Positions 10,786-25,969 of a stretch of DNA of 64,000 nucleotides are shown in pieces. Within the stretch, counting starts at the first letter, position 1, and the number at the start of each line of letters is the position of its first letter. The DNA is taken from the NCBI GenBank assembly GCA_018064455.1, contig JAGHVH010000003.1, positions 1 to 64,000 of the forward strand, written 5' to 3'. Position numbers and translations under genes: made by a program. The notes under the pieces are model-generated. The model worked only from the letters and a program-made list of their open reading frames with translations. It was not told where the DNA came from and searched no databases. This DNA is from Candidatus Limimonas egerieequi (GTDB lineage Bacteria > Bacillota > Clostridia > Oscillospirales > Acutalibacteraceae).

Positions 10786-12182
10786 TGGCAGAAATTCGTG
10801 AAGAGAACAAGATGGGCACTATGCCCATTGGCAAGCTTCTTGTATCTATGGCGGTTCCAATGATACTCTCTATGATTGTACAGGCACTGTACAATATCGT
10901 TGATAGTATCTTTGTTTCCCGTCTTTCCCAAGACGCTTTGTCGGCTGTATCTCTTGCCTTCTCACTTCAAAACTTGATGATCGCAGTTGGCGCAGGCACA
11001 GGCGTTGGTATTAACGCCTTCCTCTCCAAGAGCCTTGGTGAGAAGGACTTCAAAACAGCCAACAAGGTTGCAAACCATGCAATTTATTTCTGGGCTATTT
11101 CATATGCAATCTTCCTTACAATTGGACTTACACTTACATCAGTGTATTTCAAGGCTCAGACAAATGACCCTGCAATTTTGCAGTATGGTGTTGATTACAT
11201 GAGACCAGTTCTCTGCTACTCATTTGGCCTCTTTGGCCAGATGTTCACAGAGCGACTTCTCACATCCACAGGCCGTACAATCTATTCGATGGTAATCCAG
11301 ATGACTGGTGCTATCATCAATATTATTCTTGACCCAATTATGATCTTTGGTCTTCTTGGCTGCCCGGCAATGGGCGTGCGTGGTGCCGCTATTGCAACTT
11401 GCATTGGCCAGTGCTGTGCATGCATTCTTGGTATTATCTTGAACTTTACAAAGAATGCTGATATCGAACTCAGTGCCAAGTACTTAAAGCCAGAGTCATA
11501 TATCTTTAAACGTGTATATCAAGTTGGTATTCCATCAATCATCATGGGCTCAATTGGTTCAGTAATGACCTTTGCACTCAACAAGATTTTGATTGGCTTT
11601 ACCAAGGTTGCTGTTGCCGTATTTGGCTCATACTTCAAGCTTCAGAGCTTTATCTTTATGCCAGTATTCGGCCTCAACAACGGCATCATCCCAATCCTTG
11701 CATACAACCTTGGTGCGCGTAACCGTGAACGTCTCTTAAAGACAATCAAACTCGGCCTCATCTTTGCCTTAACGACAATGACAATCGGCCTCATTCTTTT
11801 CGAGACAATCCCTGGCACACTCCTTGGACTTTTCAAGTCGAGCAATCCGGCCGAAAACGCAGCGCTTATCGAACTGGGTGTTCCAGCGCTTAGAATAATC
11901 GCTGTTCACTTCCCAGTTGCCGCTATCTGTATCGTTATCGGCTCCACATTCCAAGCCTTTGGCAAGGCAACTTTCTCCATGGTCGTTTCAATCATGCGTC
12001 AGCTCGCAGTGCTCGTTCCTGCCGCATACTTGCTCTCCCTCACAGGAGTCCTCACAAACGTCTGGTTTGCCTTCCCAATTGCCGAAGTTATGTCTCTTGC
12101 GGTTTCGCTCTTCTTTTTCAAGACCCGCATCCTCAAGATGATGGATTTTGATAAAGCGGTTCCGCCGTTGCCAGAAAACTAA
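10785..12182 (+). CDS. MATE family efflux transporter
   Basis: MGTMPIGKLLVSMAVPMILSMIVQALYNIVDSIFVSRL. Confidence 0.95.
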   Translation: MAEIREENKMGTMPIGKLLVSMAVPMILSMIVQALYNIVDSIFVSRLSQDALSAVSLAFSLQNLMIAVGAGTGVGINAFLSKSLGEKDFKTANKVANHAIYFWAISYAIFLTIGLTLTSVYFKAQTNDPAILQYGVDYMRPVLCYSFGLFGQMFTERLLTSTGRTIYSMVIQMTGAIINIILDPIMIFGLLGCPAMGVRGAAIATCIGQCCACILGIILNFTKNADIELSAKYLKPESYIFKRVYQVGIPSIIMGSIGSVMTFALNKILIGFTKVAVAVFGSYFKLQSFIFMPVFGLNNGIIPILAYNLGARNRERLLKTIKLGLIFALTTMTIGLILFETIPGTLLGLFKSSNPAENAALIELGVPALRIIAVHFPVAAICIVIGSTFQAFGKATFSMVVSIMRQLAVLVPAAYLLSLTGVLTNVWFAFPIAEVMSLAVSLFFFKTRILKMMDFDKAVPPLPEN

Positions 12183-12199
12183 ATGAAGAATATTATTTT

Positions 12200-12237
12200 A
12201 AGGACGAATCACTCGAATGAGTTATTCGTCCTTTTTT
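12200..12237 (+). terminator. Rho-independent terminator
   Basis: AAGGACGAAT...ATTCGTCCTT TTTT. Confidence 0.85.
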
Positions 12238-12258
12238 GTAGAAACGTTTGCATCTATC

Positions 12259-12296
12259 TTGACAAAAATGCTTACTTAATATAAGATAGTAAGCAT
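12259..12296 (+). promoter_or_regulatory. abiE promoter with embedded palindromic operator
   Basis: TTGACA (12259-12264), 17 bp, TAAGAT (12282-12287); perfect 9-bp inverted repeat ATGCTTACT (12268-12276) / AGTAAGCAT (12288-12296). Confidence 0.7.
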
Positions 12297-12322
12297 AAAA
12301 GCCAAGAAAGGAGATAGCCATT

Positions 12323-12916
12323 ATGTCATCACTTAACGATATTATTGAATATGCAAAATCTCATAATGGGGTAGTAACGGCGGATACTATAACCTCTATG
12401 GGATTATCTCGTGGCTTCTTGACATATCTTTGCGAAAAGGGATTACTCGAAAATGTATCTCGTGGAGTTTATATCATTCCTGATGTATGGGAAGACGAGA
12501 TGTTTAACTTTGCAGTTAGATTTAAAAAGGGTGTTTACTCTCATGAAACTGCTTTGTTTTTATTGGGGCTAACTGATAGGACACCTGTATTTTATACAAT
12601 GACATTCCCAAAAGGATACAATCTAACGAAAGTCAAAGAAGAAGGGTTTAAGTGTATACAAAATAAGAAAGAATTTTATTCTGATGGCATTATTCAAACT
12701 TGTACACCTTCTGGTAATCAAGTTAATTGTTACTGTATGGAAAAAACTTTATGTGATATTTTGAGGCCTCGAGCTGATATAGATGTCGCAATTGTTACAG
12801 AGGCCTTTAAACAGTATGTTAAATTGAAAGACAGAAATATTGTTCTATTATCCGAATATGCAAAAAGATATAAGGTTGAAGATAAAGTGAGATCTTACTT
12901 GGAGGTGTTGCTTTGA
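12323..12916 (+). CDS. abiEi: Type IV toxin-antitoxin AbiEi-family antitoxin
   Basis: N-terminal winged-helix, GLLENVSRGVYIIPD...YSHETALFLLGLTDRTP; overlaps the AbiEii-like ORF by 4 nt. Confidence 0.85.
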   Translation: MSSLNDIIEYAKSHNGVVTADTITSMGLSRGFLTYLCEKGLLENVSRGVYIIPDVWEDEMFNFAVRFKKGVYSHETALFLLGLTDRTPVFYTMTFPKGYNLTKVKEEGFKCIQNKKEFYSDGIIQTCTPSGNQVNCYCMEKTLCDILRPRADIDVAIVTEAFKQYVKLKDRNIVLLSEYAKRYKVEDKVRSYLEVLL

Positions 12917-13752
12917 AAAATGCGATGCAATTAAAAGCTATTATGAAAAACATTGCAAAAGACAAAAACATTTCTGCACAATTGGTTTTGCAAAACTATA
13001 TGATGGAACGCCTTTTGGAGAGAGTATCGTTATCTGAATATAAAGATAAATTTATTATTAAAGGTGGATTTTTGATAGCATCTTTGGTTGGACTTGATAC
13101 AAGAGCAACTATGGATATAGATGCTACGGTAAAGGGATATCCAGTTGAGGAAAGTACAGTTCGAGAAATGTTTAAAAAGATTTGTGATATTCAAATAGAG
13201 GATGATATTACATTTTCTTTTGTGAATATAGAAGAGATTAGAGAAGGAGATAAGTATAAGGGTTATAGAGTATCCATTACTGCGGATTATCCGCCTATGT
13301 CAGTGCCTCTAAAACTTGATATTACTGCTGGAGATGTTATTACACCTAGAGAAATCAATTATAAATATAAGATGATGCTAGAAGATAAATATATTCCTCT
13401 TCTTGCCTATAATGTAGAAACCATATTGGCAGAAAAGATAGAGACTATCATTTCTAGATCGGATCAAAATACACGACCTAGAGATTATTACGATGTATAT
13501 ATCATATGGAAATTAAAACGTGATGAGATTGACTTTAGTAAGTTAAATAAAGCACTGGTTGCAACAGCGAATAAGAGAGGAAGTCAAGGCTTATTAGACC
13601 AGTATAGAAGCATCATGGACGTTGTTAAAAGCAGCGAAACAATGCAAAGCTTTTGGAATAAATATCAAAAGAGTTATACATACGCAAAGGATATTGCTTT
13701 TAAGGATACATGTGAAGCCGTAGTAGAGATTATGAGTAGTTTAAATATCTAA
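12913..13752 (+). CDS. abiEii: Nucleotidyltransferase AbiEii/AbiGii toxin family protein
   Basis: FIIKGGFLIASLVGLDTRATMDIDATVKG, AEKIETIISR...NTRPRDYYDVYII. Confidence 0.88.
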   Translation: MKNAMQLKAIMKNIAKDKNISAQLVLQNYMMERLLERVSLSEYKDKFIIKGGFLIASLVGLDTRATMDIDATVKGYPVEESTVREMFKKICDIQIEDDITFSFVNIEEIREGDKYKGYRVSITADYPPMSVPLKLDITAGDVITPREINYKYKMMLEDKYIPLLAYNVETILAEKIETIISRSDQNTRPRDYYDVYIIWKLKRDEIDFSKLNKALVATANKRGSQGLLDQYRSIMDVVKSSETMQSFWNKYQKSYTYAKDIAFKDTCEAVVEIMSSLNI

Positions 13753-13759
13753 CCTGTAA

Positions 13760-14132
13760 GGGCCCAAAATAGTTAGTTGCGACCAGCAAAGTCCCGCTTT
13801 GCTGGTGATATCCAGCCCGTAGCGGTGGATAGATGACGGGTCAAGGTCTTTAGAGCAGAGCGTACCTTGACGCGACATCTAGACAGCGCTACTAAACTGC
13901 GGTAGCACAGTCAAAACGGATGTCAAGGCACACTGCGTTCTTCGGCTTTGACATTCCGTTTGTGCCCATGCTACTGGGCGATTATTGGGAGCAAAGGATG
14001 GCTTTGCTCCCGCTCTATTCCAAGGATGGGAATACAGATAAGTTGGGTGGGGCGCTCGGGCCGGCAGGGGGGAGCATCTTCCATTTAAAAAATGAAAGTC
14101 GTGCAAACTGTAAGGGTTTGCTTGACTTTCAT
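13760..14132. ncRNA. Candidate large structured noncoding RNA, family and strand unassigned
   Basis: Gene-free region with at least eight perfect or near-perfect inverted repeats (10, 8, 7+6, 10, 6, 9 bp etc.) and two loop-to-flank complementarities; see findings. Confidence 0.5.
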
Positions 14133-14150
14133 AAACAAATGTTCTATAAT
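14122..14150 (+). promoter_or_regulatory. Consensus-like sigma-A promoter for the BRO-N-like ORF
   Basis: TTGACT (14122-14127), 17-bp spacer, TATAAT (14145-14150). Confidence 0.6.
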
Positions 14151-14260
14151 AGTTACAAGCCCCGTAGGTATAGGCTTTAAGAGTACATATTAATTTGGTA
14201 ACGGGGCCCAAATTCAAAGTCTTACAACTTTCAAGACTTTCGAATTTAGAATGGAGATAG

Positions 14261-14698
14261 GTGAACAGAATGGAAAGAAATTTTGAAGTTAACGAGAACT
14301 ATGTCATCAGGTCGGCGTACGATCCAACGAGCGAAGTGATGTATTATTCAGTGGTCGATACGATTGATTACATCTTTGACTATGAATATCCAACGGCAGC
14401 AAGGGATTATTGGTCGGTTATGAAGCATAGGTTGAGACAGGACCCAAAAACAGCATACCTTGTTAATTGTGAAAAAGCGAAGATGATAGCGCGCGATGGC
14501 AAGAAGCGCTATACAGATGTTGCGACGTTGGATCAACTCATTAATATTGTGAATTATATTTGTTTTCCAAAAAAGTCGGAGCATTTTAGATCTTATACTG
14601 GATCTCATGTGCGCAGTTTTAATGAATCGTCATTTTCAGGTGAAGTTAAGAGAATGCTTCGAGAATCAAAAGATTGTATACGATATGATGTAGTATAA
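14261..14698 (+). CDS. BRO-N / phage antirepressor-like orphan protein
   Basis: YYSVVDTIDYIFDYEYPTAARDYWSVMKHRL...VNCEKAKMIARDGKKRYTDVATLDQLINIV resembles the BRO-N pattern FSVVDVI..L..S..P..YW..LK.RL...TNC..LK..A.DGK.R.TD. Track start 14261; the ATG at 14270 is an alternative start. Confidence 0.55.
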   Translation: MNRMERNFEVNENYVIRSAYDPTSEVMYYSVVDTIDYIFDYEYPTAARDYWSVMKHRLRQDPKTAYLVNCEKAKMIARDGKKRYTDVATLDQLINIVNYICFPKKSEHFRSYTGSHVRSFNESSFSGEVKRMLRESKDCIRYDVV

Positions 14699-14719
14699 AA
14701 TATAAGATAAGGGTAAAAG

Positions 14720-14757
14720 AAAAACCTAGATTAGCACTTAGCTAATCTAGGTTTTTA
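14720..14757. terminator. Bidirectional terminator between convergent genes
   Basis: AAAAACCTAGATTAGC...GCTAATCTAGGTTTTT. Confidence 0.85.
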
Positions 14758-14800
14758 GTTTTACTTAAATATCATTCAACCCATAAAAACGTCCCACTGT

Positions 14801-16288
14801 TTACTTGTGGAAGAGGGTGTTGGACTGGTACTCTGGCTCACAAGTGAGGTTGATGCCAAGCTTCTTGTAGATTTCGGCATCAACACTTGAAACGATGACT
14901 GTCGCATGGGCCTCGCAGCCGCGAAGGCCTGAGAGGCATTCCATCGCTTTGGCAGCATTCTTGTCAGTAGCCGCTGCGATGGAGAGCGCGATGAGCGTCT
15001 CGTCAGAGTGAAGGCGTGGATTCTTGCTGCCAAGTGTGTTGGTCTTGAGAGCCTGGATAGGCTCGAAAACCATAGGTGGAATGAGGTGTACCTCATCATT
15101 GATACCAGCAAGTTCCTTGAGTGCATTGAGAAGCACCGCTGAGCAGGAACCAAGCAAATCAGTTGTGCGACCAGTAACTATATGGCCGTTTGGAAGCTCG
15201 ATTGCTGCTGCTGGAAGTCCGCCAGTGTCGCGGGACTTGGCACAGGAAACAGCGATTACTTCACGATCATCCTTGGTAAGACCTGCCTGCTTTACTATCA
15301 TTTCAAGCTTCATTACAAGGTCGTTTTCTACAACGCCTTTCTTTTTATCGCAAAGGGCCTTGTAGTACCTGCGGATAATCTCTTGGTTGGCTGCTGCAAT
15401 ACATACATCGTCGTCGATGATGCAGTTACCTGCCATATTAACACCCATGTCTGTTGGTGATTTGTATGGTGACTCACCAGCAATTTCCTCAAAGATTGCA
15501 TTGAGGACTGGGAATACTTCAACATCACGGTTGTAGTTTACAGTTGTTTTACCATATGCCTCAAGGTGGAATGGGTCAATCATGTTGACGTCATCAAGGT
15601 CAGCTGTTGCTGCCTCATAGGCCAAGTTTACAGGATGCTTGAGTGGGAGATTCCAGATTGGGAATGTCTCGAACTTGGCATATCCTGATTTGATTCCACG
15701 CTTGTTGTCGTGGTAGAGCTGGGAGAGGCATGTTGCCATCTTGCCACTACCTGGGCCTGGTGCTGTGATGACTACAAGTTCACGAGTTGTATGAATGTAT
15801 TCGTTTTTGCCAAATCCCTCATCGGATACGATGAGAGGGATATTTGATGGATAACCATCAATTGGGTAATGGCGATATACGTCAACACCAAGGTTCTCAA
15901 GACGCTTCTTAAACGCATCGGCAGATGGTTGGCTCTGGTAACGTGTGAGTACTACGCTGCCAACATAGAGGCCGATGCTCTTGAATGCGTCGATAAGGCG
16001 AAGGATTTCAAGGTCGTAGGTGATACCTGTATCGCCGCGAACCTTGTTCTTTTCGATATCGCCAGCGTTGATTGCGATAACTATTTCTGCCTTGTCCTTG
16101 AGCTGAAGGAGCATCTGAAGCTTACTATCTGGTTTAAAACCAGGGAGAACACGTGAGGCATGGTAGTCATCGAAAAGCTTGCCACCAAACTCTAGGTAGA
16201 GTTTGCCACCAAAACTTTCAATACGCTTTGCAATATGCTCAGATTGTGTCTGAAGATATTTTTCGTTGTCGAATCCTATTTTGCCCAT
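14801..16288 (-). CDS. DUF1846 domain-containing protein
   Basis: 495 aa, MGKIGFDNEKYLQTQSEHIAKRIESFGGKLYLEFGGKLFDDYHASRVLPGF...APGPGSGKMATCLSQLYHD. Confidence 0.93.
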   Translation of the reverse strand: MGKIGFDNEKYLQTQSEHIAKRIESFGGKLYLEFGGKLFDDYHASRVLPGFKPDSKLQMLLQLKDKAEIVIAINAGDIEKNKVRGDTGITYDLEILRLIDAFKSIGLYVGSVVLTRYQSQPSADAFKKRLENLGVDVYRHYPIDGYPSNIPLIVSDEGFGKNEYIHTTRELVVITAPGPGSGKMATCLSQLYHDNKRGIKSGYAKFETFPIWNLPLKHPVNLAYEAATADLDDVNMIDPFHLEAYGKTTVNYNRDVEVFPVLNAIFEEIAGESPYKSPTDMGVNMAGNCIIDDDVCIAAANQEIIRRYYKALCDKKKGVVENDLVMKLEMIVKQAGLTKDDREVIAVSCAKSRDTGGLPAAAIELPNGHIVTGRTTDLLGSCSAVLLNALKELAGINDEVHLIPPMVFEPIQALKTNTLGSKNPRLHSDETLIALSIAAATDKNAAKAMECLSGLRGCEAHATVIVSSVDAEIYKKLGINLTCEPEYQSNTLFHK

Positions 16289-25732: not shown

Positions 25733-25788
25733 AAAAGAGTTGTGTTTCACACTTTAATGTGTTAATATACATATACAATTAAAAAGTC

Positions 25789-25951
25789 TTGATAGAGGCG
25801 CGGATTTTGATAAGTACCCTCACGCAACCGAAAACACGGGTGTGGGATGAAAGGCAAATTCGCCGAAGCGCAAGTGATGTTTTTAAGCTTGTAGCTGGGT
25901 CGCTGTGAAATACACAGCGGACTGTCACTATTTTAGTGGAGAGCTGTCATA
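25789..25951 (+). promoter_or_regulatory. Lysine riboswitch (L box) aptamer
   Basis: GATAGAGGCGCG...AAGTACCCTCACG...GGGATGAAAGGCAAATTCGCCGAAGCG...AGCTGGGTCGCTG...GGACTGTCACTATTTTAGTGGAGAGCTGTC matches L-box core elements; P1 TGATAG/CTGTCA. Confidence 0.9.
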
Positions 25952-25969
25952 ACTATATTCGTAATGAGT

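Follow-up and report, generated by a model that had tools for sequence, protein, structure and literature searches.

REP sequences and BIMEs, which are mobilised by RAYT (Y1_Tnp) transposases, are short imperfect palindromes that are dispersed in intergenic DNA, keep certain core bases and also occur as inverted pairs. The element described here resembles them in these features, and its 11 strong copies at scattered loci of a single genome are those of a dispersed short palindromic repeat, but it is longer (127-190 nt, with several hairpins) and is tied to toxin-antitoxin cassettes and insertion sequences. A RAYT reading is unsupported, because the genome that carries these copies (G000, 86% complete) has no match to Y1_Tnp (PF01797). 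Three matches are found in other members of the genus, and two of the three Y1_Tnp-bearing members do not contain the repeat.

MITEs related to ISL3 and IS3 and mobile insertion cassettes (MICs) are similar to the element in that a non-autonomous repeat lies at the edges of small cassettes, copies lie inside ISL3 and IS3 elements, and the T-tracts of terminators serve as targets. However, terminal inverted repeats with a target duplication, which are regular in MITEs and MICs, are not clear at most loci of the element, and its box sequence differs from the inverted repeats of the ISL3 resident in the genome. The attC sites of integrons and CALINs share with it the arrangement of small co-oriented cassettes, many with toxin-antitoxin genes, that are separated by a structured repeat, but the element is larger and multi-hairpin, and neither an integrase nor attC core sites are seen. 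The integron integrase model TIGR02249 scores below the cut-off in all 11 of 11 genus genomes, and an integron reading therefore lacks its defining component. Large structured RNAs of Rfam (HEARO, OLE, GOLLD, group I/II introns) are likewise dense in conserved hairpins, but the region has no match to Rfam at gathering or relaxed thresholds and is not a single large RNA.

Hairpin cluster downstream of the AbiE operon

The window, which is the whole stretch of 64,000 nucleotides analysed, contains a 2.6-kb accessory insertion at 12183-14800 between a MATE transporter gene (ending at 12182) and a DUF1846-type gene (minus strand, ending at 14801). The left part of the insertion is an AbiEi/AbiEii toxin-antitoxin operon on the plus strand (12323-13752; Pfam AbiEii 5.8e-37, AbiEi_4 1.7e-9), and the right part is a 145-aa ORF on the plus strand (14261-14698), which matches phrog_15286 (PHROGs E 2.3e-18) and has no match in Pfam or NCBIfam. 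In four relatives (G005, G009, G010 and G003), the MATE gene and the DUF1846-type gene lie next to each other with one terminator between them. This arrangement indicates that the 2.6 kb, comprising AbiE, two repeat copies and the 145-aa gene, is an accessory insertion.

The first-pass annotation recorded a dense cluster of stems at 13753-14132, and each stem arm that it listed is present at its position. The plus strand of 13753-14140 (388 nt) folds with -170.4 kcal/mol, an energy that none of 100 dinucleotide-shuffled sequences reaches (-122.2 +/- 5.6; z -8.67), and the minus strand folds with a z of -7.49. Among the 380-nt tiles of the window, the cluster has the lowest folding energy (-169.7, the next tile having -147.9), and by its number of exact 6-nt stems it ranks among the top ~1%. 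The hairpin cluster is thus real and beyond chance. The G+C content is raised, as had been claimed (0.51 in the cluster, 0.33 in AbiE, 0.38 in the ORF that follows), and a convincing coding sequence is likewise absent from the cluster.

The proposal that this cluster is one large RNA of 350-450 nt is not supported. The cluster consists instead of two inverted copies of a ~127-nt dispersed-repeat unit and an unrelated stem in a promoter region, and in the promoter scan no promoter able to drive a large RNA stands out. The first-pass reading is thereby supported in part: its observation is confirmed and its interpretation is changed to a repeat pair. What survives of the suggested folded RNA of a possibly new class is a conserved, covarying secondary structure without a relative in Rfam; the comparison with Rfam covariance models gives nothing above the gathering score for the repeat and only low-scoring matches below the cut-off at the relaxed threshold.

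Two head-to-head copies of a two-hairpin unit

In a DNA search of the own genome, the window region matches many places in part, over ~120 nt, and alignment of these matches resolves 13771-14022 into two inverted two-hairpin units of ~127 nt. Copy 1 (Q1m) lies on the minus strand at 13771-13897 (covariance model R1, 126.6 bits, E 2.8e-27; alignments A1, A2 and A4). Reading leftwards, it consists of hairpin B (GTAGCGC..CGCTAC), the linker GGGCTGGATATC, hairpin C (ACCAGCAAAG..CTTTGCTGGT) and the tail CGCAA, and its C end is located ~20 nt past the AbiEii stop codon. Copy 2 (Q2p) is arranged head to head with copy 1 on the plus strand at 13897-14022 (R1, 93.4 bits, E 2.6e-19; the same three alignments), and consists of hairpin B (GGTAGCAC..GTGCCCATGCTAC) and hairpin C (GGGAGCAAAG..CTTTGCTCCC). 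The most conserved core of hairpin B of copy 1, at 13840-13871 (strand not assigned), is kept in nearly every strong copy. It reads GTCAAGG-YACGC-NNN-GCTCTNAAG-RCCTTGAC on the minus strand in copy 1, with its stem capped by a GC-NNN-GC triloop. The terminator scan detects no terminator inside 13771-14022, and none for AbiE between 13752 and the repeat.

The covariance model R1 was built from 12 copies. It detects 11 strong copies at unrelated loci in the own genome (E 1e-28 to 3e-19), and four other members of the genus (G005, G001, G009 and G010) contain a few. Beyond the genus copies, it gives only one weak match among 198 relatives (E 8e-6, in G138) and weak matches only, in three genomes, among 391 genomes of the class. 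The weak matches in G138, G256, G303, G322 and several distant genomes are judged to match the core only or to be palindromes that arose by chance. The repeat has no match in collections of phages and plasmids or in viral contigs, and no published description of it was found in a search of the freely accessible literature. The covarying repeat family is absent from Rfam. An exact-core scan also gave loci in Christensenellaceae MAGs, at which the core hairpin is located behind an rve-domain transposase; these were kept out of the family, because only the core and the outer stem are alike. The hairpin-B core CAAGGYACGCNNCGCTCTAAAGRCCTTG is located there behind the rve-domain transposase gene of a multicopy insertion sequence (L084, L077 and L096) and at many contig ends, and is thus spread more widely than the repeat.

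Secondary structure and covariation

In an alignment of 15 distinct copies, standard pairs make up 90.5% of the paired cells, and both sides change in 15 of the 28 pairs. This alignment is fitted to the structure of the model, so that the counts lean towards that structure; in an unfitted MAFFT alignment, 12 of 30 pairs are already changed on both sides. None of 500 shuffles (0.156 +/- 0.015) reaches the observed covariation score of 0.363, and sliding the partners gives no more than 0.137. Covariation is seen in both hairpin B and hairpin C. The innermost stem hardly varies, and the internal loop or core of hairpin B is near-invariant among the copies. The linker between hairpins B and C is GGGCTAGATATC in the family.

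The covariation upholds hairpins B and C and gives no support to the pseudoknots and the stems that cross from one copy to the other. Both proposed pseudoknots are not kept in other copies, and either join the two different copies or compete with conserved pairing. The GACATC/GATGTC stem and the GCTAC/GTAGC stem (13888/13902) are similarly unconserved elsewhere, being cross-copy stems or rivals of conserved pairing. Of the non-Watson-Crick combinations at paired positions, 10 are G-U and 12 are A-C, without strand bias of the wobble pairs. This balance, which with 15 related copies is weak evidence, gives no indication of selection on one strand as RNA.

Anatomy of the full element and its genomic neighbours

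The full element is ~190 nt long and modular, and consists of a 5' box (GGTWTCTGSCGGTCAAWC), hairpin A, the long bulged hairpin B, a linker and the short hairpin C. Some other copies run upstream via hairpin A to this box, and the window copies are 5'-truncated versions of this longer dispersed element. The box and hairpin A alone, without B-C, are found at C24 and C28, in ISL3 elements of G001 and on the right side of C39, and B-C alone, without the box and hairpin A, is found in the window copies and in the IS3-type element of G009 and G010. The box is located directly behind a terminator (T-tract) at 12 of 18 box sites, compared with 112 of 4000 random positions (2.8%). An inverted box at the far end is seen only at C39 and C22. 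The flanks at C22, TTTTTCTT and TTATTCTT, match at 7 of 8 bases, which may represent an 8-bp duplication at this locus only; at most loci, no clear terminal inverted repeat with a target duplication is found. A second palindromic repeat of ~190 nt (L024 998-1187 and L026 1115-1302, 70% identical) lies at the far end of both cassettes, C39 and C22, and ends in the box-like sequence GGKCTCTKCCGAGCATCAATCC.

Accessory genes (toxin-antitoxin, nuclease or other) are located downstream of 8 of the 11 own-genome copies. These are a cassette array with HTH antitoxins and BrnT at C9, an HTH antitoxin at C3, DUF3990 at C14 (also in G005), DhiT/DUF4160 with DUF2442 at C39, an Rpn/PD-(D/E)XK nuclease at C22 and the 145-aa ORF in the window. 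One copy in G001 is located upstream of a ToxN-family toxin. Of the remaining three own-genome copies, one is directed towards the AbiEii 3' end (window), one is located inside an ISL3 element and one between two copies of the skipping-rope RNA. The inverted repeats of the ISL3 element (DDE_Tnp_ISL3 E 2.8e-61) bracket the repeat copy, which is antisense to the transposase. In the IS3-type element of relatives, the unit lies in the leader, between the left end and the transposase genes.

The C22 cassette is missing from G009, in which the response-regulator gene follows iorB. The relatives that lack the window insertion or the C22 cassette show presence and absence of whole islands, not of the repeat moving alone. 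One type of terminator-to-promoter junction occurs in the C9 array both with and without the ~197-nt element. In the C9 array (L020, G000:C9 84-92 kb), the co-oriented toxin-antitoxin cassettes have a common AAGCCAGGC..GCCTGGCTT terminator and a common promoter block with paired ACCGYTCGT motifs, and the repeat is present at some junctions and not at others. At the skipping-rope locus (L045, G000:C21), tandem segments with this RNA (RF02924) at 1149-1463 and 1656-1973 are 93.7% identical, and the repeat copy is inserted between them, directly behind the terminator of the first segment.

Nature of the repeat

The hairpin cluster is probably a pair of inverted, 5'-truncated copies of an undescribed, non-autonomous REP/MITE-like mobile repeat that acts mainly as folded DNA. 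This reading builds on what is observed, namely the repeat family, its covariation, its adjacency to terminators, its accessory context and the absence of the insertion from relatives; from there we infer the mobiliser, the action at the DNA level and any effect on expression. The element usually marks the left edge of a small accessory cassette, mostly with toxin-antitoxin or nuclease genes, and also rides in ISL3 and IS3 insertion sequences. Most likely, it serves as the folded DNA end, or as a passenger segment, of cassettes on which the transposase of an insertion sequence acts in trans, for which an ISL3-family transposase with a preference for terminators is our best guess. If the element is transcribed, its hairpins probably just insulate or stabilise the flanking transcripts. 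A dedicated mobiliser could be missing from the data, because the genome is 86% complete and fragmented.

The strong conservation of pairing could also mean a role as RNA, which counts against a reading as DNA only. The repeat would then be a multicopy functional structured RNA, such as a trans-acting sRNA, 3'UTR or leader, and the window pair would be the 3' part of the AbiE transcript or a minus-strand transcript. The covariation of hairpins B and C and the near-invariant internal loop suit such an RNA, as do the shared orientation of the copy and the gene that follows it at the majority of toxin-antitoxin loci, the position in the IS3 transposase leader and the lack of an AbiE terminator from 13752 to the repeat. 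However, the promoters of adjacent genes are located downstream of the element (TTGACT/TATAAT at 14122-14150, and similarly in L009 and L012), G-U is not above A-C at pairs, the unit is antisense to the transposase in ISL3, and the copy number and modular truncation resemble those of a mobile repeat. A functional RNA is therefore unlikely, though it deserves some weight. A set of simple insulators or bidirectional terminators that local recombination had duplicated, and that had no mobility of their own, would explain the position of the element between convergent or tandem genes and the terminator shape of hairpin C in G001:C8. Such an origin is very unlikely, because most hairpin C copies have no T-tract, the terminator scan detects no terminator inside 13771-14022, and a terminator of the host usually precedes the box immediately.

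We give equally little credence to attC-like recombination sites of an integron-style toxin-antitoxin cassette system that act as single-stranded folded DNA. The C9 array does consist of co-oriented small cassettes with a structured repeat between them, the toxin-antitoxin content is typical of sedentary integrons, the conserved hairpin has extruded bases, and the element is adjacent to terminators. Against this, no integron integrase scores above the cut-off in any of the 11 genus genomes, which give only XerC/D-like partial matches, no GTTRRRY/RYYYAAC core pair is seen by eye at the element ends, and the element is located upstream of its accompanying gene and also inside insertion sequences. 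A somewhat different possibility, speculative and improbable, is an undescribed cassette system of gut Clostridia, integron-like without an integron integrase, in which a folded single-stranded DNA element and some recombinase or transposase would insert toxin-antitoxin cassettes behind terminators.

These observations link the repeat family to the entry sites of accessory toxin-antitoxin and defence genes. If cassettes are indeed targeted to terminators, the repeat would provide a concrete handle on the movement of small toxin-antitoxin modules between gut Clostridia. The locus also cautions that a dense covarying hairpin cluster can be a composite of mobile repeats, not a large RNA.

Promoter region downstream of the repeat

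The stem at 14092-14132, which had been counted as part of the structure, is located outside the repeat, belongs to the SOS-type promoter region of the next gene and overlaps the promoter itself. The promoter scan places the promoter of the 145-aa ORF on the plus strand at 14122-14150, outside the repeat, with TTGACT and TATAAT separated by 17 nt and a LexA-like box, AAACAAATGTTC. This promoter resembles those of orthologues and that of a dinB gene in G029. The leader of the 145-aa ORF (14158-14206) contains a short stem that changes on both sides, with pairing kept in most of five homologues. Judged by these sequence features, the region 14122-14210, with an SOS-type promoter and a conserved structured 5' leader, is possibly a new cis-regulatory RNA, and we regard it as a candidate. 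Elsewhere in the window, an ordinary lysine riboswitch is present at 25785-25954 (93 bits).
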